64,000 nt of DNA from Halalkaliarchaeum sp. AArc-CO (GTDB lineage Archaea > Halobacteriota > Halobacteria > Halobacteriales > Haloferacaceae). This document shows positions 10,116-29,955 of the stretch, in pieces. Made by a program: the position numbers and the translations under genes. The notes beneath the pieces were generated by a model. That model saw only the letters and a program-made list of their open reading frames with translations, was not told the DNA's origin and did no database searches. Numbering within the stretch: position 1 is the stretch's first letter; every line of letters begins with the position of its first letter. The stretch is from assembly GCF_024972735.1 (NCBI RefSeq), contig NZ_CP087723.1, forward strand, positions 992,001 through 1,056,000, written 5' to 3'.

Positions 10116-10841
10116 TCACTCGAGGCTGAACGTCTCGTCGCCTTCGAGGACGCGGACCTCGGCGTCGCTGCCGGTCGCTTTCACCTCGCGGACGAAGTCG
10201 TCGGTGTCGATCTCGATCGGCGGGAACGTGTCGTAGTGCATCGGGAACGCGTAGTCGACGTCGAGCCAGTCGACCGCGATCGCCGCCTGGGTCGGACCCA
10301 TGGTGAAGTGGTCGCCGGCCGGAACGGCGGCGGCGTCGGGTTCGAGGAACGGTCCGATCACGTCGCGCATCTCGCTCATCAGGCTCGTGTCGCCGGCGTG
10401 ATAGAACGTCGTCGCGTCGGGATCGGCTTCCTGTGTCGGTTTTTTGTCAGAAATGACGAAGCCGGCAGGCATTCCGGCGCTCGTCTCGTAGCCGGTTTCG
10501 ATGCCGTTGGTGTGGTCTGCCCGGACCATCGTAACGAAGGCGTCGCCACACTCGACGGTACCGCCGAGGTTCATCCCCATGCCGCCGACGGCGTCCTCGA
10601 AGCCGAAGTTGTCCTCGGCGTATGAGACCAGTTCCGGGACTGCGACGAGCGTTGCCTCGGAGAACTCGCCTGCGTGGGCGACGTGATCGGCGTGCCCGTG
10701 GGTGAGCAGGACGTAATCCGGCTGATCGACGTCCGCCGGATCAAGATCCGTCTTCGGGTTGTCGAAGAACGGATCGATCAACAGCGACGTTTCACCGACC
10801 GTTACGTGCCAGGTGGAGTGGCCGTGCCAGGTGAGTTCCAT
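10116..10841 (-). CDS. Metallo-beta-lactamase-fold hydrolase, UPF0173 type
   Basis: This 241-residue protein begins [13 protein letters not shown], typical of UPF0173, and carries the dinuclear metal motif THGHADHV. Later ligands appear in YHAGDTSLM and MHYDTFPP. The family has hydrolase activity on phosphodiester or ester substrates but its physiological role is not settled. I start at 10841, since the family begins at this strand; the open frame extends to 10889. It is a single gene between OsmC and the PKD protein. Confidence 0.9.
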
Positions 10842-10937
10842 AGCCAGTCGATACACCTCGCCGACAGGTAATAAAAGTCGTTGATACATTCCGAACGGTC
10901 CCTGCCACGTACAACGAATTTCTGCCGTGGCGCGGGG

Positions 10938-13436
10938 TCAGGAACACCCCTCGTCTTCGAGTTCTCCCTCGCCGCTTCCGCAGGCGACGACGCGTTCGGA
11001 CACCTCGCCGATCACATCAATCTCGTCGGTGTTCGGTGGGGTGAGACTCACCTGGTCGATCTCCCGTTCGACCTCCTTTTCCCACTCGTAGGTGGTCGTG
11101 GTTTCGTAGTCGAGTTTCTCGTACACGCCGTACTCGATTTCGTCGGTGTAGGTACGTTCCCATCGGTGGAGATCCTGTCGATCGTACTCGGGGACGCGGT
11201 ACTCGTAGTACACCTCCGGGGTACTCGTCGTTCGTTCCCAGAGGTATTCGGTGCTATAGGTAGGGTATTCGAACTTGTACTCCCGGCTGGTATCGCTTTT
11301 CCACACCGTTCGTTCGCCCCAGTCGATGCATCTGCCATTCCCGAACCAGCTGTTCGTTCGCTCCTTGCAGTACCGTTCGGTTTCGGTGTAGTAGTCGGTC
11401 ACCGTCCTGGAGTCGACGACCCGCCAGCCGGCCGCCGGGGCTCGTCGTGACGACCGCCAGGTCGACCCGGTCCCGTCGCGAACCTGTCCGGTGGATCGAA
11501 CCCGCGACCATCCCGAGCCAGAGGGTCGAGAGGTGCTCCGTTCCCGCTCGGTGGTCGTGTGGTAGTTCGTCGTCGTCCCGACGTAGGTGCCGTCGTTGGG
11601 AGCGAGACTCCGGTGGGGAACCTCGACGTGGTCGTAGCCCACGATCCGAGTTTCGCTGTCGACTGTCCGTTCGGCCATCGACCAGTCGCTTCCCGGCCAG
11701 TTTGCGGCCACCCGGGTTTCCCGACGCTGTTCGGTTTCGGTCTCGGTTCCGATCCGTCGCCAGTCGTCCGATAGCAGGGCGTCGGGGTTCTGCTCGTCGC
11801 GGATGCGCGTTTCCTCTCGGTCGACTACCTCTTCGTCGATCGACTCGATGCCGGCCTTTTCCCAGCCCTCGCCGGGATCGTCTTCCGAAACGTATTCGGC
11901 GACTGCAGTCGTTCTCTCGGTGTAGTGGTACTCGGTGTAGGAGTCGAAGGTGACGGTTACTTGCGTTTGGTCACTTGTGTCCTGAAATTCTTTTCCAGAA
12001 AGCCACACTGAATAAGTCCCAGGAGAACTATATTGATGTGTTATTGTATATGTATTCCCACCACACAACCGTGATCCCTGGCAATCGTCTGCATATAGAT
12101 TTAAAGAACTGCCATCGCCGAAATTGATTTCATAGAGATCTTCATGATCTGCCGGCGTCGTTGCTGTCTCAATCTCAAAAGTAGCAGTCAGCGTTGAATC
12201 TTCAATCTCCTGTATTTGGACATAATCTTCACCATGGCTAACTGTTGGCCCTTGAATCACTACGGTTTCCTCATATCTGTCTATTCTCCCAAACTGATCA
12301 ACAACTTTTACTTCAACATTGTATTCTCTACTAACTGGTTCATGTATCTCATAAAAATGAGTTGCTGAAGGTCGCGAGGTTTTAGTCTTGGACCCATCTC
12401 CAAAATTCCACATGTATGTTAAATCTTGTCCATTTGATGAATCCACATCTGCCGAAAATTGGATCGATTCTTGTGGGACTGCGGTTAATAACGCCTTTTC
12501 TACTTGTCTATCCAAATAATCCTGTACTTCTATTGTTGGATCATTACCAGCATATTGAGTACTAGTTTCTAAACCAGTAACCTCGTGTTCCGGCTCATCT
12601 GTAACTTCTGGAGTTTCTGCGTCGGGTTCTACAACTGTAACTCCCTTCTCAACTGAGACTTCATCACCGAAGTTGGTTGTGCCAAGGACTGTAATCTTCC
12701 CAGAATCTGCCTTCTGGTCACTAAATGAGATGTCTTGTGTTGTTCCAGATCCGAGATAAATATCTTGGCCCGACGTATATTCCCAATCGTACTCGGTTAT
12801 CTCACCACTACTTTCCACTTCGTAAGTATGCTCTGTTCCCTGTACGACTACTGAAGGTCCGGAAATTCTCAAGTCAATAGGATCTTGATCTGTTCCATCA
12901 GATCCGGTTGTTTCTTCAGGTTCATCCGGATTTTCAGGCTCATCTGAAGCAGGGGCTGGTGTTGGATCGCTTCCAGAACCATCGTCTGGATTGGACGAGG
13001 GAGCCTCTGAGGTGTCATCTGTGTCATTTGTTTCATCCGGTCCGTTGTCGGACTGTCCCGGCTCATCCTCAGACGAGTCCGCAATCTCCACCAAAACTTC
13101 CACGTAATCTTCGCTCACCTCGTCGTTCGTACCAATCACTTCGACCGTAAAGCGCCATTCGCCGGCGGAATCTGGCACATAGGTGTGTCTCACTGAATCG
13201 CCACCCTCAAGACGTTCTCGCTCCCCGCCAGGCGGAGTGACGTACCACTGGAACCCGTCGATATCCCCGCTCACCGCCCGCGACCCACTCGCGTCGAGAT
13301 ACACGGTCTCCCCGAGATCGACGGACCTGTCCAGGCCCGCGTCGGCCATCGGCTCGGTTTCGTCCGCTACTACTACGGCCGTCGAACCCACGGCTGCGAC
13401 GACCAACAACACCGCGAATACCTTCCTGCCGTCCAT
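10938..13436 (-). CDS. Large secreted PKD-domain protein with compositional mosaic and W-repeats
   Basis: This 832-residue protein starts with a Sec-type signal (FAVLLVVAAVGSTAVVV). Then come a PKD-like domain (about 28-115), an Asp/Pro/Thr-rich linker (about 118-195), an Ig-like domain (196-285), two PKD domains with NFGDGS turns (about 330-490) and a 330-residue C-terminal region rich in Tyr, Trp, Arg and Glu. That region repeats a G-x-W type turn (GEGW, GSDW, GSGW, AAGW and SDDW) with charged strands between, and ends with a Cys pair. It is probably a surface adhesin or stalk. DNA for residues about 117-494 is much lower in GC than both ends, as if a central block was exchanged. No C-terminal membrane anchor is seen. 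Confidence 0.85.
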   Translation of the reverse strand: MDGRKVFAVLLVVAAVGSTAVVVADETEPMADAGLDRSVDLGETVYLDASGSRAVSGDIDGFQWYVTPPGGERERLEGGDSVRHTYVPDSAGEWRFTVEVIGTNDEVSEDYVEVLVEIADSSEDEPGQSDNGPDETNDTDDTSEAPSSNPDDGSGSDPTPAPASDEPENPDEPEETTGSDGTDQDPIDLRISGPSVVVQGTEHTYEVESSGEITEYDWEYTSGQDIYLGSGTTQDISFSDQKADSGKITVLGTTNFGDEVSVEKGVTVVEPDAETPEVTDEPEHEVTGLETSTQYAGNDPTIEVQDYLDRQVEKALLTAVPQESIQFSADVDSSNGQDLTYMWNFGDGSKTKTSRPSATHFYEIHEPVSREYNVEVKVVDQFGRIDRYEETVVIQGPTVSHGEDYVQIQEIEDSTLTATFEIETATTPADHEDLYEINFGDGSSLNLYADDCQGSRLCGGNTYTITHQYSSPGTYSVWLSGKEFQDTSDQTQVTVTFDSYTEYHYTERTTAVAEYVSEDDPGEGWEKAGIESIDEEVVDREETRIRDEQNPDALLSDDWRRIGTETETEQRRETRVAANWPGSDWSMAERTVDSETRIVGYDHVEVPHRSLAPNDGTYVGTTTNYHTTTERERSTSRPSGSGWSRVRSTGQVRDGTGSTWRSSRRAPAAGWRVVDSRTVTDYYTETERYCKERTNSWFGNGRCIDWGERTVWKSDTSREYKFEYPTYSTEYLWERTTSTPEVYYEYRVPEYDRQDLHRWERTYTDEIEYGVYEKLDYETTTTYEWEKEVEREIDQVSLTPPNTDEIDVIGEVSERVVACGSGEGELEDEGCS

Positions 13437-14088: not shown

Positions 14089-15246
14089 ATGTCACACAGT
14101 ACCGAACGCATCTCGACGACGCACGTCGGGAGCCTCCCCCGCCCGGAGGATCTGCTCCCGTACTTCGAGCGCATACAGGCCGGCGAGGAGATCGACGAGG
14201 AAGCCTTCGAAGCGGCGGTCAGGGAGGCGACGGAGGAGGCGGTCCGCCGACAGGAGGAGGTCGGGATCGACGTCGCAACCCATGGGGAACAGGGGCGACT
14301 TTCGTTCGTCACGTACGTCGTAAACCGGCTCACCGGTTTCGAGGGCGAAGTACCGGCGATACAGTGGGCCGATCTCGAGGAGTATCCGGAGTACGCTCGG
14401 CAGGTTCCGACGTTCCGGGAGTGGTCGGAGCCGGGGGCGACGATTCCGGCCGCCTCCGGGCCGATCGAGTACGACGGCGAGGCCGAGACCAAGGCGGAGC
14501 TCGACCGGTTCGAGGCCGCCATCGAGGAGACCGGCGCCGAGTTCGAAGAGACGTTCGTGACGGCGGCCGCACCGGGAACCGTCGCTGCCTACGTCGGAAA
14601 CACCCACTACGACAGCCACGAGGAGTACCTCTTTGCGGTCGCGGACGCGATCGCCACCGAGTACGAACTGATCGCCGACTCGGGGGCGACGCTCCAGATC
14701 GACGCCCCGGACCTGCTCGGAGGGCGGCATCTCAAGTTCAAGGACCGCTCCGAGTCGGAATTCGTCGAGGTCGTGGCAACCCACGTCGAAGCCCTCAATG
14801 AAGCGCTCGCGAACGTGCCGGCAGAGCAGGTTCGGATCCACACCTGCTGGGGGAACTACGAGGGGCCACACCACCACGATATCTCGCTGGAGACGGTCCT
14901 GCCCGAAATCTACGAGGCAGACGTCGGGGGGCTTTTGATCGAGCAGGCGAACCCGTGCCACCAGCACGACTACACAGTTTTCGAGGAGCATGGCGTCCCC
15001 GACCGCTGGCAACTGATCCCGGGGGTGATCGACGTCACGGTCAATTACATCGAACCCCCGGCGGTGATCGCCGACCGCATCGAGCGGTTCGTCGACGCCG
15101 TCGGCGATCCCGATCGGATCCTCGCGGGCGCAGACTGCGGGCTCGGCACGTTTGCCGGCTTCGGGGCGGTCCATCCCGAAATCGCCTGGAAGAAGCTGGA
15201 CGCCCTCGCCGACGGGGCGAAACTGGCGAGCGAACGGGTGTACTGA
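14089..15246 (+). CDS. MetE-like (cobalamin-independent methionine synthase C-terminal fold) protein
   Basis: This 385-residue protein has the TIM-barrel fold of the zinc-dependent methyltransferase half of MetE. The start (STTHVGSLPRP), a metal-site segment HTCWGNYEGPHHHDI, GVIDV and DCGLGTF are typical. True MetE zinc sites use His, Cys, Glu and Cys; here the His-x-Cys and a later ADCG are kept. This subgroup lacks the N-terminal half of bacterial MetE and includes uncharacterised proteins, so the methyl donor and acceptor are uncertain. A carbohydrate kinase follows 68 bases later, but nothing links the two functionally. Confidence 0.8.
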   Translation: MSHSTERISTTHVGSLPRPEDLLPYFERIQAGEEIDEEAFEAAVREATEEAVRRQEEVGIDVATHGEQGRLSFVTYVVNRLTGFEGEVPAIQWADLEEYPEYARQVPTFREWSEPGATIPAASGPIEYDGEAETKAELDRFEAAIEETGAEFEETFVTAAAPGTVAAYVGNTHYDSHEEYLFAVADAIATEYELIADSGATLQIDAPDLLGGRHLKFKDRSESEFVEVVATHVEALNEALANVPAEQVRIHTCWGNYEGPHHHDISLETVLPEIYEADVGGLLIEQANPCHQHDYTVFEEHGVPDRWQLIPGVIDVTVNYIEPPAVIADRIERFVDAVGDPDRILAGADCGLGTFAGFGAVHPEIAWKKLDALADGAKLASERVY

Positions 15247-15314
15247 CGCGATTTCGACTCCGGGATGATCCGGCTCTCGACAGCCCTTTGGTGGCCGCCG
15301 CCGACCACCGTGTT

Positions 15315-16355
15315 ATGTGGGACGACACGTTCGGCAGCGACTCGGATCCGTCGTCAGATCCGTCCGTTCTGGTCGTCGGTGAGACGCTCGTCGATTTCAT
15401 CCCCGAGACCCCTGGGCCGCTTCCCGACGTCGAAACGTTCCATCGCCGTGCGGGAGGTGCTCCCGCTAACGTCGCGGTCGGGCTTTCCCGACTCGGCGTC
15501 ACCCCGGCGTTCTGGACCCGGGTCGGCGACGATCCGTTCGGTGACTTCCTCCGACGAACGCTCGAGGCGGCGGGGATCCCCGACGAACTCGTCGAGATCG
15601 ATCCCCGCGCCAAAACCGGGCTCGCGTTCGTGAGCCTCGATCCGGACGCAGACCGAGCGTTCAGCTTCCACCGCGACCGCAGCGCCGACACCCGACTCCA
15701 GTCCGGACGAATCGACGACGAACGCCTCGAAGGGACAGACTGGCTTCACGCCGGCGGCGTCACGCTCGCCGACGATCCCGGTCGGGAAGCGACGTTCGAT
15801 ATCCTCGAACGCGCCGGTGGCACCGACACAACGGTTTCGTTCGATCCCAACGCCCGTCCGGAACTGTGGGACGAGTACGACTTCGCCGACAGCGTCGACC
15901 GGGCTTTCGGCCTCGCGGACGTCGTAAAGACGTCCCGGGAGGATCTCGAGGCGGCGGGATACGACTGCGAACTCGACGACGAACAACTGGTCCGAAGCGT
16001 CGCCGACGACGGCCCCCACACGGTGTTTCTCACCCTCGGCTCCGCGGGTGCGGTCGCGTATGCGACTCCCGATGCCCCGTGGTTCGACGACGCCCACAGG
16101 CCCGGTGACGGGGAGAGATCCGCTGACGCAGTCGTCCGACACGACGGTTACCCGGTCGATGCAGTCGACACGACCGGCGCCGGCGACGGGTTCTTCGCGG
16201 GCGCGATCGCGGCCCTCTCGAACGACGAACCGCTCCCGATGGCTCTGGAGTTCGCGGGCGCGGTCGCGGCGGTGACGACCACCGAACCCGGGGCGATGAC
16301 GGCGCTGCCGACCCGCAAAGAGGTTGCGGCGTTTCGGAAACAGTTCGAGAGGTAG
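15315..16355 (+). CDS. PfkB-family carbohydrate kinase, fructokinase-like
   Basis: This 346-residue ribokinase-family sugar kinase has the N-terminal motif GGAPANVAVGLSRLG and the C-terminal DTTGAGDGFFAGA with catalytic Asp in the GAGD motif. The GETLVDFIP opening and overall pattern resemble fructokinase. The ATG at 15315 is chosen because upstream residues of the open frame only shadow the previous gene. Phosphorylating fructose would fit the GH32 enzyme at the left edge. The substrate remains inferred. Confidence 0.88.
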   Translation: MWDDTFGSDSDPSSDPSVLVVGETLVDFIPETPGPLPDVETFHRRAGGAPANVAVGLSRLGVTPAFWTRVGDDPFGDFLRRTLEAAGIPDELVEIDPRAKTGLAFVSLDPDADRAFSFHRDRSADTRLQSGRIDDERLEGTDWLHAGGVTLADDPGREATFDILERAGGTDTTVSFDPNARPELWDEYDFADSVDRAFGLADVVKTSREDLEAAGYDCELDDEQLVRSVADDGPHTVFLTLGSAGAVAYATPDAPWFDDAHRPGDGERSADAVVRHDGYPVDAVDTTGAGDGFFAGAIAALSNDEPLPMALEFAGAVAAVTTTEPGAMTALPTRKEVAAFRKQFER

Positions 16356-16443
16356 CTCGACCGCCCGGGTGGACGACCGCGACGAGGAAACCGCCGGACT
16401 TTATACGGCCCATTAATTCTGAACGGCTGATGCGGGGGCAGCA

Positions 16444-17949
16444 ATGAGTCGCGACGAGGCGACGTTCGTAGAGTACGGTATCGACGATAAACCACCCCTT
16501 TCCACTTCTCTCGGTCTCGGAGTCCAGCATTACCTCACGATGGTGGGGGCTAACATCGCAGTCCCGCTGTTGCTCGCGGGGGCACTGGGGATGCCCCAGG
16601 AACTGTGGGGGCGATTCATCGGTACCTTCTTCGTGGTCTCGGGGATCGCGACGCTCGCCCAGACCACGTTCGGGAACAGGTACCCGATCGTTCAGGGTGC
16701 GCCGTTTTCCCTCCTTGCACCGGCGCTTGCGGTGATCGGGGTCGCACAGGCCACCGGTCACGACTGGAACGGAGCGTTGCTCCAACTCCAGGGGGCGATC
16801 GTCGCCGCCGCGATGGTCGAGGTAGCGGTCGGCTACTTCGGACTGGTGGGGAAGGTCCGGGAGTATCTCTCCCCGGTCGTGATCGCGCCGACGATCGCGC
16901 TGATCGGGCTGGCGCTGTTCGACGCCCCGCAGGTGTCGACTGCGACTCAGGACTGGTGGCTGCTGGGGCTTACCCTCGTGTTGATCGTCGGGTTCTCACA
17001 GTACCTCGACGCGGCACACCGGGCGTTCCGGCTTTATCCGGTCGTCCTCGGGATCGTCGGGGCGTATCTCGTCGCGCTGGCGCTTTCGGTGACGGGACAC
17101 TACGCGCCCGGCATGCCGGGATACGTCGAACACGGCATCGATGTCTGGATGGAAGGCGGCCTCGTGATGGCGATCTACCCGCTGCAGTGGGGGACCGCGA
17201 TCGGGTTCGAAACCGCCTTCATCATCGGGATGCTCGCCGGGATCGCTGCCTCGATAATCGAAAGCCTGGGCGACTACTACGCGGTCGCCCGCCTGTCGGG
17301 CTCGGCCGCGCCCAGCGCAAAGCGGATCAACCACGGCATCGGCATGGAGGGACTCATGAACGTCTTCTCCGGACTGATGGGGACCGGTGGATCGACTTCC
17401 TACTCCGAGAACATTGGCGCGATCGGCCTCACGGGTGTCGCCTCGCGCTACGTCGTGCAGGTGGGTGCGGCGGTGATGCTCGTGGTCGGATTCCTCGGCC
17501 CGTTCGGCAACCTGATTCGGACGATCCCGGATCCGATCGTCGGAGGGCTGTACGTCGCGATGTTCGGGCAGATCGTCGCTGTCGGGCTGGCGAACCTGAA
17601 ACACGTCGATCTCGAATCACAGCGCAACCTCTTCGTGGTCGGACTCGCCATGTTCACCGGGCTCGCAGTTCCCGCCTACATGGACAACGTCGGCGACGTC
17701 GAGGCGCTCCAGCAGGGAATGGCCGAAGTGACGCTTTTGGGCCCGGTTCTCGGGACGGAGGCTATCTCGACGACGATCTTCGTGATTGGCTCGACCGGTA
17801 TGGCAGTCGGCGGGCTGGTTGCCCTCCTGCTCGACAATACCATCGAGGGAACCCGCGAGGAGCGCGGCCTCGAGGAGTGGGAGAAGACCGCGGAAACCGA
17901 CTCACAGTTCGTTTCCGCGTACGATCGGTTCGTCCGCAGCAACGATTGA
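16444..17949 (+). CDS. Uracil/xanthine permease (NCS2 family)
   Basis: This 501-residue membrane protein has the features of the nucleobase:cation symporter-2 family: about 14 hydrophobic segments, LGVQHYLTMVGANIAVPLLL near the N terminus, QGAPFSLLAPALAVIGV, and the signature around SGSAAPSAKRINHGIG followed by GGSTSYSENIG with the substrate-contacting Glu. It imports uracil, xanthine or a related base. It stands alone, followed by a tandem repeat array. Confidence 0.92.
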   Translation: MSRDEATFVEYGIDDKPPLSTSLGLGVQHYLTMVGANIAVPLLLAGALGMPQELWGRFIGTFFVVSGIATLAQTTFGNRYPIVQGAPFSLLAPALAVIGVAQATGHDWNGALLQLQGAIVAAAMVEVAVGYFGLVGKVREYLSPVVIAPTIALIGLALFDAPQVSTATQDWWLLGLTLVLIVGFSQYLDAAHRAFRLYPVVLGIVGAYLVALALSVTGHYAPGMPGYVEHGIDVWMEGGLVMAIYPLQWGTAIGFETAFIIGMLAGIAASIIESLGDYYAVARLSGSAAPSAKRINHGIGMEGLMNVFSGLMGTGGSTSYSENIGAIGLTGVASRYVVQVGAAVMLVVGFLGPFGNLIRTIPDPIVGGLYVAMFGQIVAVGLANLKHVDLESQRNLFVVGLAMFTGLAVPAYMDNVGDVEALQQGMAEVTLLGPVLGTEAISTTIFVIGSTGMAVGGLVALLLDNTIEGTREERGLEEWEKTAETDSQFVSAYDRFVRSND

Positions 17950-17980
17950 CCGCGGACTGTCGATGCTCCTCCGTCAGTCT

Positions 17981-18087
17981 CGCCCCCTGTTTCGCTCTCG
18001 CCCCCTGTTTCGCTCTCGCCCCCTGTTTCGCTCTCGCCCCCTGTTTCGATCTCATCCCCTGTTTCGATCTCGTCCCGATTTCGATCT
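17981..18087. repeat. Tandem 18-bp repeat array, about six copies
   Basis: The unit is cgccccctgtttcgctct. Three perfect copies start at 17981, 17999 and 18017, followed by three increasingly altered ones (18035, 18053 and 18071). The array fills the gap between the uracil permease stop and the aldo/keto reductase start, so it lies in the 3' UTR of one and the promoter region of the other. The degenerating order from left to right suggests slippage growth. Confidence 0.9.
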
Positions 18088-18129
18088 CGTCCCCGGATTC
18101 TTTCTTTGCGGGGTGTGTACCCGACTACT

Positions 18130-18936
18130 ATGAGTCGGCTCGACTTGCCGCAGATCGGTCTCGGTACGTCCGGAAACGACGAGTTCGAGGAGTGTGCCGA
18201 GACGGTAAGAGCGGCCCTGGATGTGGGGTATCGTCACGTCGACACCGCCCAGATGTACGACAACGAGGCTGCCGTCGGCGAGGGAATCCGCCGGAGCGAC
18301 GTCGACCGGGAGGCGGTCACGATCGCGACGAAGATCCACCCGGACAACCTCGCGTACGAGGACGTCTTGAAAACTGCCGAGGAGAGCCTCGACCGGCTCG
18401 GTGTCGACGCGGTCGATCTCCTGTACGTCCACTGGCCGATCTCCGCGTACGACCCGTCCGAGACACTCCAGGCCTTCGACGAACTCGTCGAGGAAGGGGT
18501 CGTCGATCACGTCGGCGTCTCGAACTTCTCTCCCTCGCTCGTCGAGGAGGCCCAACAGCACCTGGAGGCTCCGATCGTCGCCAACCAGGTCGAGTGCCAT
18601 CCCCTGTTGCCACAGCAGACCCTCCGGGCACACGCCCACGAACACGGCTACGAACTCGTCGGCTACTCCCCACTGGGGCAAGGGGAACTGCTCGAGGAAC
18701 CGCTGCTGTCGGAAATCGCTGCGGAGTACGACGCGACGCCGGCACAGATCGCGCTGTCGTGGGCGATCGCCAGGGGCGTGACCCCGATCCCGAAAGGTCG
18801 AGGCGATCATCTCCGTGAAAATCTCGCGTCGGTTGGGCTCGATTTGCGTGCTGCCGACGTCGCCCGGATCGACGAACTCGACCAGCGGACCCGGTTCGTC
18901 GATCCCGACGCCGCTCCGTGGAACGAGGGATCGTAA
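18130..18936 (+). CDS. Aldo/keto reductase
   Basis: This 268-residue NADPH-dependent aldo/keto reductase has the family pattern IGLGTSG, the catalytic Asp and Tyr in VDTAQMYDNE, the Lys in TKIHPDN, the His in DLLYVHWP, and the cofactor region GYSPLGQG with IPKGRGDHLREN. It reduces aldehydes or keto-sugars; the substrate is not predictable. The ATG at 18130 puts the first strand in place; an upstream in-frame ATG at 18106 overlaps promoter sequence. Confidence 0.92.
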   Translation: MSRLDLPQIGLGTSGNDEFEECAETVRAALDVGYRHVDTAQMYDNEAAVGEGIRRSDVDREAVTIATKIHPDNLAYEDVLKTAEESLDRLGVDAVDLLYVHWPISAYDPSETLQAFDELVEEGVVDHVGVSNFSPSLVEEAQQHLEAPIVANQVECHPLLPQQTLRAHAHEHGYELVGYSPLGQGELLEEPLLSEIAAEYDATPAQIALSWAIARGVTPIPKGRGDHLRENLASVGLDLRAADVARIDELDQRTRFVDPDAAPWNEGS

Positions 18937-26352: not shown

Positions 26353-27612
26353 CTACCGTTCGAGAATCCGCAACGCCGCTCCTCCCAGTAACCGGAGGGG
26401 TCGAACGAGGTAGTAGATCGGATGGAAGGGACCGGAGAGCGGGAGCAACCGATACTCCGGGAGACTGGGATGGAGCGGCCCGGATCGGATCAACGACCCG
26501 AACGTCTCGACGGGAGAGTCACTTGCTTTCGCGTTGTATCGGATCCGCTCGAACCCTCCGGGTCGGGTCGTTCGCCCCCGAGCCAGATCCGACACGATTT
26601 CTTCGATCAGCCTCCGGGATCGGCCATCCGCCCGGAGCCGTCGGTCGACGGACACGGGGAGGTCGATGTCCCACAGTGCATTCGCGAGCCCGGCTCCGAG
26701 GAGAAATTTTCGCTCGAGTCGGTGCGTTTGCGCCCGCTGTAACAGCTCATCCCACGGGGCGGGCGTCCGCACGACTGTCCACGCGAAGTCGGCGATCCAC
26801 TTCAGCAGGTGCCAGCGGTGTTTCGTGCCGTGAAACGCCAGAACCAGCAGCCGATCGATCGGATCCAGTGTGGGGAGTTCAGTTCCCGAGAGGTGGATCG
26901 TGTCCCGACGGCTCCAGAGCGCTTCGAAATCCAGTGGAAACGGACGATCCATGTCGCCGACGTGCCACCGGATTTCCACGGTAGTTTCCTCTCGCTGGAG
27001 CTGGTACTCGTTGACGATCGGCATCGTGAACCTCCCTCCGAGGAGAGCGACATCGCCTTTTCGCGGGAGCGATCCCTCCCAGGAGTACCCTCTCTCTTCG
27101 AGGAGGTCGATGGCTCGAGTGACGTCTTCCCTGTGAACGACGACATCGAGATCACCGTACTCGCGAAGTGACACATCGCCATACGTAAACGCCGCCAACA
27201 CCGGCCCCTTGAACGGAAGCGCCCGGAGTCCTTCCTCCTCGAACCCGATGAGGATCTGTCGGAGTTCGTCCGTGTCTCGGAGGGTTCGAATGGCGTTCGA
27301 ACGAACCCGGTTTCGCAGTTTTTCTTCGACGCTCTCGGGAACCTCGATGCCTCCCAGGCTGCTGTCGGCGGACTGTCTGAGTCGCCGGTGCACGAGCGGT
27401 GCGACCCCGTGATCCGTTGTGAGGGCCAGGAACCGGCCCCAGTCCAGTTCCGACGGGGGCTGTAACCGCGGCGGTCCGGGACCGTCTTCTGTCGGCTCTT
27501 TCGGCGGCCGTGTACAGTGGACGAGCAGTTCGACAGCAGGCAACACGTCCGGCCCACGATCTGACGAGCTTTCATCGCGCGTGTCGAGTCTCGGAAGTGC
27601 CGTCCCCGTCAC
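26353..27612 (-). CDS. Nucleotidyltransferase-family protein of a lasso-type RiPP cluster
   Basis: This 419-residue protein matches the uncharacterised nucleotidyltransferase family (PF14907 type): GVAPLVHRRLRQ, then FKGPVLAAFTYGD and the catalytic acidic pair in REYGDLDVVV. Such proteins recur in lasso-peptide clusters with HPr-kinase-like proteins. The reaction is unproven; transfer of a nucleotide or phosphate to a peptide is one idea. The start codon overlaps the stop of the kinase-like gene by four bases (ATGA), so it is last in a coupled operon. A C-terminal Arg/Leu-rich amphipathic stretch could bind membrane. Confidence 0.85.
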   Translation of the reverse strand: MTGTALPRLDTRDESSSDRGPDVLPAVELLVHCTRPPKEPTEDGPGPPRLQPPSELDWGRFLALTTDHGVAPLVHRRLRQSADSSLGGIEVPESVEEKLRNRVRSNAIRTLRDTDELRQILIGFEEEGLRALPFKGPVLAAFTYGDVSLREYGDLDVVVHREDVTRAIDLLEERGYSWEGSLPRKGDVALLGGRFTMPIVNEYQLQREETTVEIRWHVGDMDRPFPLDFEALWSRRDTIHLSGTELPTLDPIDRLLVLAFHGTKHRWHLLKWIADFAWTVVRTPAPWDELLQRAQTHRLERKFLLGAGLANALWDIDLPVSVDRRLRADGRSRRLIEEIVSDLARGRTTRPGGFERIRYNAKASDSPVETFGSLIRSGPLHPSLPEYRLLPLSGPFHPIYYLVRPLRLLGGAALRILER

Positions 27613-28535
27613 GGACGCTCACCGAGATTTCGTTCCCCCCGGACGCCGAGGTCATTTTCCACGAGGGCTATCACGTCCGAAAACACGTCCAGCCGTCGTC
27701 GACGCCGGAGCCGTTTGACCGGAACTGATTTTGCGAGCGAAACCGCTCGCGTGAAGTTTTCACGGGCGTAGTCGCTCTCCTGGTGGAGGCTGACCGTGTA
27801 CGTGTTCTCGATCAGTTCCAGTACCTGTTCGCTTGCAGGGGCCGGGGCGATCTCTTCGCGTTGGGCGTCCTCGAGGAGGTAAATACGCCGGAGCGGTACC
27901 GCCTCGACCGGCTGTTTGTGGCAAAGCCCGTAGAAGTGTCGATCCCGGGACTCACAGATGTTCTCTGGCGGATCGACCGAAAGACCGAATCGCTCGACCG
28001 TGGCCGGTTCCAGCTTTATGGAGGGGAACCCGCTATGGACCGTCGGCTCGTCCACCCGTTCGATCGCTGCCACGTCGTCGCTGAGGACCCGATGTCCGGC
28101 CGCCAGAAACGCGGTGGCGGTGGTCGTCTTCCCCTGTCCGGAGGTTCCAGCGAAGACGACAGCACCGTCACCGATCTCGACTGCACTGGCGTGCAAGACG
28201 AAGAACCCCCGCTGGTGCAACAGGTGGTTGAACGCCGGTCCCACTACGACGTGACGAACGATCTCTCCGTGGACATGGTCCAGCGAATCCACGACGATCT
28301 CGCGACCATCCCGTATCAGTACACTCGCGACCTCGTAGGTGAGGCGGTAGTCCCCCTCTGGAGTCACGGACACCGCACCGTTTTCTCCACCGTTGTTCTG
28401 CACACTTCCGCGCCGTACGACCACGTCCGGGTCGTCGTGGTCCGATCCGTCACCAGGGGCTAGCTCCGGAAGCGGGATCTCCGATACGACGGAGAGTCCG
28501 AACGCCTCGTAGCTGTTCGTCCGACGGAGAGTCAT
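27609..28535 (-). CDS. HPr-kinase/lasso-kinase-like P-loop protein
   Basis: This 308-residue protein carries a Walker A motif GTSGQGKT (residues 130-137), an upstream LHASAVEI strand and a downstream LSDDVAAI with paired Asp, the arrangement seen in HPr kinase and in lasso-peptide tailoring kinases such as that of paeninodin clusters. Those enzymes phosphorylate a Ser on the peptide, but the predicted core here has no Ser or Thr, so a different acceptor is likely. It overlaps both neighbours by ATGA, the small upstream ORF and the nucleotidyltransferase. Confidence 0.88.
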   Translation of the reverse strand: MTLRRTNSYEAFGLSVVSEIPLPELAPGDGSDHDDPDVVVRRGSVQNNGGENGAVSVTPEGDYRLTYEVASVLIRDGREIVVDSLDHVHGEIVRHVVVGPAFNHLLHQRGFFVLHASAVEIGDGAVVFAGTSGQGKTTTATAFLAAGHRVLSDDVAAIERVDEPTVHSGFPSIKLEPATVERFGLSVDPPENICESRDRHFYGLCHKQPVEAVPLRRIYLLEDAQREEIAPAPASEQVLELIENTYTVSLHQESDYARENFTRAVSLAKSVPVKRLRRRRRLDVFSDVIALVENDLGVRGERNLGERP

Positions 28536-28801
28536 GCTCTCGTCCCGGGATCGAGGAGCGTCCGAGTCGACACGTCCGCTACGGTGATGGACAGCCCCGT
28601 AACTGCCGCCGTGATCTGGCGCCCTGTACTGCCGTCGACGTTCATATCTTCAGCCTGGAGACTGGGACCCATTAGTATGGAGTCGCTATCAGGGAGGGAC
28701 GATAGCGCCAGCGGCGGATTTCGCTCGGGAGTCGCGCATCCAGCCGAGCTCGACCCTGCTGAAGCAGGGGTCGGCCGGTACTGTGCGTGCTCGTTCGACA
28801 C
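28532..28801 (-). CDS. Small unknown ORF coupled to lasso-kinase-like gene
   Basis: From a GTG at 28801 this frame gives 89 residues; shorter starts are ATG at 28672 (46 residues) and ATG at 28645 (37 residues). I recognise no domain; the C-terminal part reads QITAAVTGLSITVADVST. The support is that its stop overlaps the kinase-like start by four bases (ATGA), just as the kinase-like gene overlaps the next. It sits where lasso clusters often hold the cyclase gene, so it could be a remnant 3' end or a new small component. A 6-bp hairpin with TGAA loop at 28754-28769 lies inside its first third, which favours a downstream start. Confidence 0.4.
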   Translation of the reverse strand: MSNEHAQYRPTPASAGSSSAGCATPERNPPLALSSLPDSDSILMGPSLQAEDMNVDGSTGRQITAAVTGLSITVADVSTRTLLDPGTRA

Positions 28802-28850
28802 GCGCTCCAGAAATGACTTCGGCCGAGTCAGTCCGTCCGCCCGTTATCGT

Positions 28851-28946
28851 GGCTGTCGTAGCCCGTTACCGGATGGACAAGCCGCCGACGATCCAACGGA
28901 GGATCCCGCCGACGAGCCCGCCGACCGACAACTCGCTACGACAGCC
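28851..28946. repeat. 12-bp inverted repeat enclosing 72 bases
   Basis: The left arm is ggctgtcgtagc (28851-28862) and the right arm is its exact reverse complement (28935-28946). The enclosed bases include a minus-strand micro-frame (28931-28866, TTG start) for a 21-residue Gly-rich hydrophobic peptide with three GG pairs. The repeat lies just downstream of the precursor stop at 28958, so in RNA it could form a long-loop hairpin. Confidence 0.6.
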
Positions 28947-28957
28947 TGTTCGAGTCG

Positions 28958-29050
28958 CTAATATTCTTCGTCGTGGCCGTAATGTTCGTCTTGCGTCAGT
29001 TCTTCGACTTTCCCGTGGGTTTCGACTTTCGGCGGTTGGTAGTCTTTCAT
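28958..29050 (-). CDS. Lasso-type RiPP precursor peptide (30 residues)
   Basis: An ATG at 29050 opens a 30-codon frame ending in TAG. The first 20 residues follow the leader rule for lasso precursors, Y-x-x-P then Gly then L-T: YQPPKVETHGKVEELT. A leader Thr at position -2 predicts cleavage after Gln20, leaving the ten-residue core DEHYGHDEEY. The core has acidic side chains at 7-9, where lasso rings close, but is too short for ring plus tail, has no Ser/Thr and starts with Asp. Genes for the leader-binding protein and leader peptidase lie just upstream. A TATA-like box at 29090-29097 and a hairpin (gggtgtggcaccc, 29051-29063) precede the ATG. Confidence 0.75.
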   Translation of the reverse strand: MKDYQPPKVETHGKVEELTQDEHYGHDEEY

Positions 29051-29097
29051 GGGTGTGGCACCCGGCTATTTTTTGTTCAGTGCCGGTATTGTTATAA
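29051..29097 (-). promoter_or_regulatory. Promoter and 5' hairpin of precursor peptide gene
   Basis: On the minus strand a TATA-like GTTATAAC (29097-29090) sits about 40 bases before the precursor ATG, so transcription would begin near 29067. The last 13 bases before the ATG form a perfect 5-bp hairpin (GGGTG, loop CCA, CACCC), which could affect translation initiation. Confidence 0.5.
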
Positions 29098-29234: not shown

Positions 29235-29675
29235 TCAAAACAGGGACTGGAACCGTCGATCTGCATCCCTCTCCGTCAGAATCCGGTACTCAGCGAGGTC
29301 GTCGAGCTCACCGATCAGGACGGAACCGTCCCGTTCGATCCACGCGTGAGCGTGGAATTCGCCGTGTTTTCTGGTTACGCCGAGTTTGAGTTCTGCCCGG
29401 TGGCCGTTCGCCTCGAGCAGCGCTTTTCCGACGATCGCTTTCATCAGACACGTCGGCGAGAACGGTGCCCGGCGGTGTACGGCCTCCACAGCAGCCGCGA
29501 TCGCGCCGGGGGCGACCTGCCGGAAAGGAGGGGCCCTGGCTGCGACGGGCTCGACGATCCGACGTGTCGCGTCCCATCGGAGAACCGGAAGCAGTAGCCT
29601 CGTCGAGGACAAAAGCACCGCTGCTGTCGCTATCAGCGTCCTCGATGGCCGATCTGTCTCACTTTGAATATTCAT
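29235..29675 (-). CDS. Lasso peptide B2-type leader peptidase (transglutaminase-like)
   Basis: This is a transglutaminase-like cysteine protease of the lasso B2 family, which removes the leader from precursor peptides. From the ATG at 29675 it has 146 residues: an N-terminal hydrophobic stretch, Cys76 in SPTCLMKAI, His110 in FHAHAWIE and an acidic residue in GELDDLAEYRIL, giving the Cys-His-Asp triad. The frame is open to 29711, but 29675 leaves a 17-base overlap with the PqqD-like gene upstream, a credible coupling. Length and order (B1 then B2) match split lasso systems. Confidence 0.9.
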   Translation of the reverse strand: MNIQSETDRPSRTLIATAAVLLSSTRLLLPVLRWDATRRIVEPVAARAPPFRQVAPGAIAAAVEAVHRRAPFSPTCLMKAIVGKALLEANGHRAELKLGVTRKHGEFHAHAWIERDGSVLIGELDDLAEYRILTERDADRRFQSLF

Positions 29676-29955
29676 CCACTGTTTCGAGAAGACCCGTGTC
29701 GCCCAGTTCACGGAGGAACTGGAGGACGTCCTCTTCGCAGCGCTCGGGCTCGACGTCGTAGGTTTCCGCGACCGATCGTTGTATCTCGCGTACTCTCGTC
29801 GGCTCTTGAATCGACTCCCAGATCTCCGGTCCGGTCCCTGTGAGGCTCTGGTAGCTTCCCTCCTCCTCGTTGTACACCACCACTTCGTCGTCGAGAGTCG
29901 TGGCGAGCGAACTGTCGTTTGCGACCACGAGGGAGTCGGGAGTGAGATTCGTCAT
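29659..29955 (-). CDS. PqqD-like RiPP recognition element (lasso B1 type)
   Basis: This 98-residue protein has the PqqD fold: DDEVVVYNEEEGSYQSLTGT, then EIWESIQEP and a winged helix ending in LGDTGLLE. Such proteins bind the leader peptide, contacting its Tyr-x-x-Pro motif, and hand it to the B2 peptidase. It is first gene of the minus-strand pair B1-B2 and overlaps B2. The leader of the downstream precursor-like peptide has the motif expected for this partner. Confidence 0.9.
   Translation of the reverse strand: MTNLTPDSLVVANDSSLATTLDDEVVVYNEEEGSYQSLTGTGPEIWESIQEPTRVREIQRSVAETYDVEPERCEEDVLQFLRELGDTGLLETVDEYSK

Follow-up and report, generated by a model that had tools for sequence, protein, structure and literature searches.

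The accessible part of PMC12144867 names lasso peptides as one of the RiPP classes that are abundant in Archaea, and Haloferax volcanii as a laboratory host for archaeal RiPPs; PMC10105419 does not mention lasso peptides. Two described groups stand closest to the locus reported here. The first comprises paeninodin and pseudomycoidin, lasso peptides that are phosphorylated or phosphoglycosylated, with a WxxP motif in the paeninodin-like leaders (accessible part of PMC8498205). The second, the linear polyphosphorylated peptides (LPP), consists of linear phosphorylated relatives of lasso peptides which, in the available part of PMC13381572, are so far described from Bacillota only and rely on a different peptidase, a SipW-like signal peptidase. 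The LPP leader reads YxxPxVLxHQxIxFETxxS, and the core studied there is 45 residues long and phosphorylated on Ser3. In our searches of the open-licence literature, we found no description of an archaeal family that lacks a cyclase, contains the leader peptidase B2, and bears cores such as those described below.

The window (the whole stretch of 64,000 nucleotides analysed) holds a small gene, A, enclosed by the genes of a putative peptide-modifying system. The open reading frame (ORF) at 28958-29050 is a genuine gene, and its cluster is probably a cyclase-less archaeal offshoot of the lasso family, in which a short linear peptide would be decorated by a kinase (K) and a nucleotidyltransferase (N). 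The features concerned are as follows.

26353-27612, minus strand: N, nucleotidyltransferase of the NTP_transf_5 family, 419 aa (PF14907, 194.6 bits; cut-off 31.2)
27609-28535, minus strand: K, kinase of the HprK/PEPCK fold, 308 aa, scoring under the cut-offs that apply to the named HprK families
28958-29050, minus strand: A, precursor with leader MKDYQPPKVETHGKVEELTQ and predicted core DEHYGHDEEY (NF033521, 19.5 bits; cut-off 19)
29051-29063, minus strand: palindrome GGGTG-CCA-CACCC, immediately upstream of the start codon of A
29089-29095, minus strand: TATA-like box ATAACAA (shared form ATAACWA), 45 bases upstream of the start codon of A
29235-29711, minus strand: B2, transglutaminase-like leader peptidase, 158 aa (NF033537, 77.7 bits; cut-off 33)
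29659-29955, minus strand: B1, PqqD-like RiPP recognition element (RRE), 98 aa (PF05402, 64.5 bits; cut-off 23.4)

The precursor and its enzymes

Gene A encodes 30 residues, MKDYQPPKVETHGKVEELTQDEHYGHDEEY, followed by a stop codon; the coordinates and the lasso-type leader motif given in the initial annotation agree with both the ORF and its translation. The leader follows the pattern Y..P.V...G.....T. and thus contains the lasso signature YxxPx[LVI]...G...T(-2), while its score against NF033521, the lasso-leader model of NCBI, is a narrow pass, the precursors of four relatives reaching 14.0-18.7 bits and falling under the same cut-off of 19. According to the Thr(-2) rule, cleavage would take place after Gln20. 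The resulting core contains two His, two Tyr, and no Ser or Thr, as first described, and five acidic residues instead of the six then counted. A lasso fold needs a ring of 7-9 residues plus a threaded tail, and the ten residues of this core fall short of it.

The five genes lie on one strand in the order B1-B2-A-K-N, with A between B2 and K. That B1 and B2 genes accompany the precursor, as supposed from the letters, is confirmed by the models for PqqD (64.5 bits), Transglut_core3 (PF13471, 75 bits; cut-off 26) and lasso_biosyn_B2 (77.7 bits), all of which exceed their cut-offs. B1 matches three solved chains, namely PbaB1 (9x90, E 7.5e-10), TbiB1 (5v1u), and LppB (9x8z), and one of its Asp residues can be read, by alignment, as the counterpart of LppB Asp70, which bonds the leader Tyr (accessible part of PMC13381572). 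This Asp occurs in all 34 haloarchaeal B1 rows, those of cyclase-bearing loci included, and therefore does not set the clade of A-type clusters apart. In B2, Cys88 and His122 are present and invariant in nine sequences; a B2 profile found no match among solved structures.

A profile built from seven K sequences matches HprK with an E value of 4.6e-8. His115, the P-loop (Gly130-Thr138), and Asp153-Asp154 of K are intact and invariant in 23 sequences, and its predicted model (mean pLDDT 92) resembles PEPCK and HprK structures. Alignment of K against genome contigs returned at least 21 loci, all bacterial among the matches listed, and tblastn against plasmids gave 13 records, every one below 60% identity. 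The acidic pair Asp154/Asp156 of N is likewise present and is invariant in 14 sequences. None of the ten ORFs scanned at this locus encodes a SipW-like signal peptidase, B2 being found instead. Nor does any of the ten encode an ATP-grasp ligase or a radical SAM enzyme, as a graspetide or a PQQ/mycofactocin-type RiPP would have beside its precursor.

An open gene for an ABC protein of 598 aa lies 182 kb from the cluster in the same genome (C2:834637-836433). Its best matches are the transporters of the A-type clade (54% to that of genome G471), with those of some cyclase-bearing loci nearly as close (576 vs 639 bits); by this similarity, the displaced protein may belong with the cluster. An ORF that looks transposase-like by eye (L084, 10053-10895) adjoins the displaced transporter gene and could explain its separation.

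Relatives, selection, and flanking DNA

Taken by itself, the leader motif is weak evidence against chance: it occurs once in the six frames of the window, compared with a mean of 0.25 and a maximum of 2 in 40 first-order Markov simulations, and when the count is restricted to short ORFs that begin with ATG and carry the motif close to that end, it is one for the window and one for the 40 simulations pooled. Place and conservation are stronger evidence for a real gene. A leader-specific DNA pattern (Y..P.[VIL]ET[YH]G) was found in 19 of 391 haloarchaeal genomes, whereas the same pattern read backward, used as the control, was found in one of 391. In 14 of the 19, comprising the window's genome, G192, G166 (six copies), and 11 genomes of genus g34, A-type precursors lie beside B/K/N genes. 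The matches in G312, G278, G404, G217, and G147 are due to chance or to unrelated frames. Within family f3, the pattern was found in 17 of 146 genomes, which adds G471 (three copies) and G475; here, the matches in G278 and G404 were discarded as one and the same unrelated protein, and that in G459 because the letters show an in-frame TAA within the match.

The B2 model matched 33 of the 391 genomes, 31 of them above the cut-off, and the regions around these matches were compared together with one from G041 (the G299 region being just 9 kb long, and the window itself standing for its own genome). Loci L050 and L051 (G310 and G299), whose B2 scores lie under the cut-off, were omitted from the all-against-all comparison, the gene maps, and the trees. 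The expectation of the initial annotation that homologous small ORFs occur in syntenic loci was borne out: A homologues lie in related clusters of 14 further haloarchaeal genomes, all belonging to a single clade, as well as in G166. The arrangement is common to them in a wide sense. Eleven g34 genomes show B1-B2-A-K-N with an ABC transporter gene facing away; G192 and G475 have A just before K; and in G471 three A copies follow B1-B2 and are themselves followed by an AsnB-like gene, the transporter, K, and N. For G475, whose contig ends inside the transporter gene, there is neither a B1 nor a B2 row.

In maximum-likelihood trees, the leader-bearing loci form one clade for K (15 rows, support 98/97), for N (15 rows, 100/99), and for B1 (14 rows, 97/90). 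In the B2 tree, an outside long-branch row, L071, joins the 14 clade rows (15 rows, 95/91). The window belongs to family f1 and has its nearest tree rows in f3 genomes, which suggests a possible transfer of the cluster from one family to another. G166 likewise belongs to f1 but was kept as a group of its own: its precursors have the leader in common with the clade, while the K, N, and B1 of this genome fall outside it.

Some of the compared loci show further precursor arrangements. At L056 of G166 (14725-18428), six precursors have nearly constant leaders and differing short cores; four of the six contain Gly-Ser-Glu-Pro and five have the TATA-like box. L071 of G425 (10233-11678) is a cluster without a cyclase-family gene and with three precursors, one core of which contains a run of 19 glycines. 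A second precursor type, with an HFSxVDGNSGTTGNRG core, is present in the cyclase-bearing loci L058 (14992-15150) and L064 (5203-5346), where it adjoins a further kinase gene.

Sequence variation at A was analysed in ten g34 genomes, G289 being left out. Nine codons vary, eight of them synonymously only (one being the stop codon), and the sole non-synonymous change converts the last residue from Ser to Asp. Variation is greatest at third codon positions, and the mean pairwise nucleotide identity is 97% for the A ORF compared with 75-90% in five flanking stretches. Gene A is thus under purifying selection in these ten close genomes, where both leader and core are kept. A chance ORF was rejected on conservation and place, the motif alone contributing less to this verdict.

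These findings also bear on the idea of a lasso locus in decay, one that has lost its cyclase and whose other genes are remnants. The absence of a cyclase and the removal of the transporter from the cluster in the window's genome would agree with decay, but the five genes are open with their motifs intact, the whole clade is without a lasso cyclase, A is under selection in ten genomes, and the precursor has been multiplied to three copies in G471 and six in G166. Decay is, accordingly, a most improbable account.

The DNA upstream of A is partly shared as well. Of the 20 precursor copies examined, 18 have ATAACWA upstream; it stands at -43 to -47 within the clade (13/14) and at -56 to -59 in G166 (5/6). 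The palindrome GGGTG-N3-CACCC is found immediately upstream of the ATG or one base from it in the window, in G471 (3/3 copies), and in G475. G192 and G289 show forms with 4 bp, and five of the six G166 copies a CGGGG/CCCCG variant; the remaining seven g34 genomes in the sample have no 4-bp stem at this place. Random 32-mers of the window contain 5-bp stems in 18% and 4-bp stems in 47% of cases. As stems are this common by chance, the weight rests on the shared sequence and place of the palindrome, not on the stem alone.

Downstream, a long and nearly perfect hairpin (28851-28946, minus strand) begins 11 bases past the stop codon of A. It folds with -64.1 kcal/mol and a z score of -6.8 over 113 bases (z -3.45 for a 130-base stretch). 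The stretch 28540-28957 has itself as its single match in its own genome and short partial matches in 20 of 166 others, and among 16 other precursors folded no comparable downstream structure was seen. The hairpin may be a palindromic element that was inserted here, or a structure at the 3' end of the transcript. A short hydrophobic frame with a TTG start, LSVGGLVGGILRWIVGGLSIR (28866-28931, minus strand), is probably no gene because it sits within the hairpin.

Search for a lasso cyclase

A cyclase-family gene is present in 16 of the compared loci, one of which was scanned and gave 651.5 bits with NF033535; none was found in the clusters of the window, G166, G192, G425, or the g34 genomes. 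A profile of six locus cyclases was then run on 21 of the 34 B2-matching genomes. Its best scores were 508-1122 bits in six of them (G392, G072, G349, G223, G091, and G171, the last with the cyclase about 20 kb from B2) and at most 194 bits in the other 15, among them 73 in the window's genome (G000), 65 in G166, 27 in G192, and 75 in G425. The 11 g34 genomes gave 0-194 bits with this profile, there being no match at all in G266 and G206, which keep both the cluster and the precursor despite this. Pfam Asn_synthase was detected at five places in the window's genome, none of them within the window, and two distant proteins of that genome match the lasso cyclase weakly, scoring 77.7 and 21.7 bits with a model whose cut-off is 525. 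The macrolactam cyclase of lasso pathways (protein C), i.e., a lasso-type cyclase, is missing from the cluster and from the window's genome.

The initial annotation had judged the core too short for a lasso fold, and the two results agree: a short core fits a cluster without a lasso cyclase in a genome without a lasso-type cyclase match. An ordinary lasso peptide was rejected on both counts.

Within the G471 cluster lies an AsnB-like gene whose halves are in different frames (L138, 10415-12401). It scores 257 bits as AsnB (cut-off 267.1) and 125.7 as a lasso cyclase (cut-off 525); Pfam sees the amidotransferase half alone in that frame. The first half shares 44-49% identity with proteins in eight of the 11 g34 genomes, none of which was seen beside the A cluster. 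A role of this gene as a lasso cyclase is unsupported, given its higher score as AsnB and its split over two frames.

The core might nevertheless be cyclised by an enzyme resembling asparagine synthase whose gene lies outside the cluster; the product would then be a minimal lasso or a macrolactam that is very small and unthreaded. The core of A has acidic residues at positions 7-9, and position 9 is Asp in four cores of relatives (two of G471, and those of G475 and G192), which would fit a nine-residue ring; the AsnB-like gene in the cluster of a clade member and the two distant matches in the window's genome provide candidates. Their scores of 77.7, 21.7, and 125.7 bits are far from 525, though, the loci of both distant proteins look by eye like glycan synthesis, the G471 gene is broken between frames, G266 and G206 retain the system with no match to the profile, and a ten-residue core would leave a tail of 1-3 residues. 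Ring closure in trans is, on balance, unlikely.

Proposed pathway and comparison with known systems

With no macrolactam cyclase encoded alongside A, the ten-residue core would stay linear, and the reading that we favour as probable, that of a cyclase-less lasso offshoot, can be laid out as a sequence of steps. By family resemblance, B1 would bind the leader through Y-x-x-P-x-V, K would phosphorylate the core on the B1-bound precursor, and N would extend the phosphate by another group, probably a sugar, in the manner of paeninodin and pseudomycoidin. B2 would then cut after Gln20, with Thr at -2, and the product would be exported by the ABC transporter, whose gene is at the side of the cluster in relatives and about 180 kb off here. 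The joint logic of K and N is taken from these phosphorylated lasso peptides (accessible part of PMC8498205), and the order of steps and the chemistry also draw on work on Bsf and LPP (accessible parts of PMC10368454 and PMC13381572).

Comparison of the cores bears on which residue K may modify. The survey covered 15 distinct precursors, nine of them from the clade proper, with cuts placed from Thr(-2), or Ser in G192. Core length ranges from 8 to 17 residues. Among all 15, seven are without Ser or Thr, 14 contain Tyr, and four contain His; for the nine clade cores, the corresponding figures are seven, nine, and four, with Tyr-Gly in eight. An acidic residue stands no more than four positions before Tyr in each of these nine, and Tyr is the sole hydroxyl residue common to them. 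The C-terminal residue is Tyr in the window, Ser in nine of the ten close g34 genomes, and Asp in the tenth.

The first reading of the sequence had considered the acidic His/Tyr core suited to metal binding or to modification on Tyr, His, or acidic side chains. The composition of the A core is the one point in favour of a metal-binding peptide, and this proposal did not survive the comparison, since His is not conserved: it is present in just four of the nine distinct clade cores and in four of the 15 overall. Acidic residues are, moreover, usual in haloarchaeal proteins. We regard a metal-binding function as very improbable.

Seven of the nine clade cores lack Ser and Thr, whereas every one has a Tyr preceded by an acidic residue; from this comes the weak suggestion that the likeliest acceptor here might be the Tyr of acid-x-x-Tyr-Gly. 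K might be a tyrosine kinase, or might form acyl phosphates on acidic side chains, in which case the pathway would be chemically different and not just shortened. The same core statistics speak for such a kinase, as do the intact K and its own clade. Against it, LppK did not phosphorylate the S3T or S3Y variants (accessible part of PMC13381572), BsfK accepted S3T but not S3Y (accessible part of PMC10368454), and the shared Tyr may serve recognition or activity instead of accepting a phosphate. We consider a kinase of this type possible but doubtful. Equally tentative is the wider proposal of a haloarchaeal RiPP class that has kept the lasso leader, RRE, and B2 and given up the ring; in such a class, K would act on a minimal acid-x-x-Tyr-Gly core, at its Tyr or at acidic side chains, before N transfers a nucleotidyl group or a sugar.

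The cyclase-less offshoot that we prefer resembles the paeninodin and pseudomycoidin systems, as given in the accessible part of PMC8498205, in its B1, B2, K, and N families and in the C-terminal Ser of the commonest g34 core. It differs from them in the absence of a cyclase, in a core that is too short, in the C-terminal Tyr that A has in place of a Ser acceptor, and in its YxxP instead of WxxP leader. Closer at hand, haloarchaeal cyclase-bearing loci (such as L041, L058, and L062) share B1, B2, K, transporter, and leader families, and N in most; they are set apart by the cyclase, by longer cores with Ser or Thr, and by their position outside the B1/K/N clade.

With the LPP system of Bacillota, as far as the accessible part of PMC13381572 describes it, the A cluster has in common a discrete RRE with the Tyr-holding Asp (unspecific, as noted above), a YxxP leader, and an HprK-like kinase and NTP transferase in the absence of a macrolactam cyclase, K and N being encoded here without a lasso cyclase as well; a linear product would be a further likeness. 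The differences lie in the peptidase, which is B2 instead of the SipW-like enzyme, in the leader, which in the A family contains ETYG or ETHG and does not conform to the LPP motif, in the cores of 8-17 residues, and in the Ser acceptor, which the A core and most other distinct clade cores do not offer.

Taken together, the A system departs from lasso peptides in cyclase and core and from LPP in peptidase, leader, and Ser, yet it is like both in logic. It suggests that the module of lasso leader, RRE, and B2 can run without a lasso cyclase, in Archaea, and on cores of about ten residues, and it offers a clean test of an HprK-like peptide kinase that faces a core without Ser or Thr.
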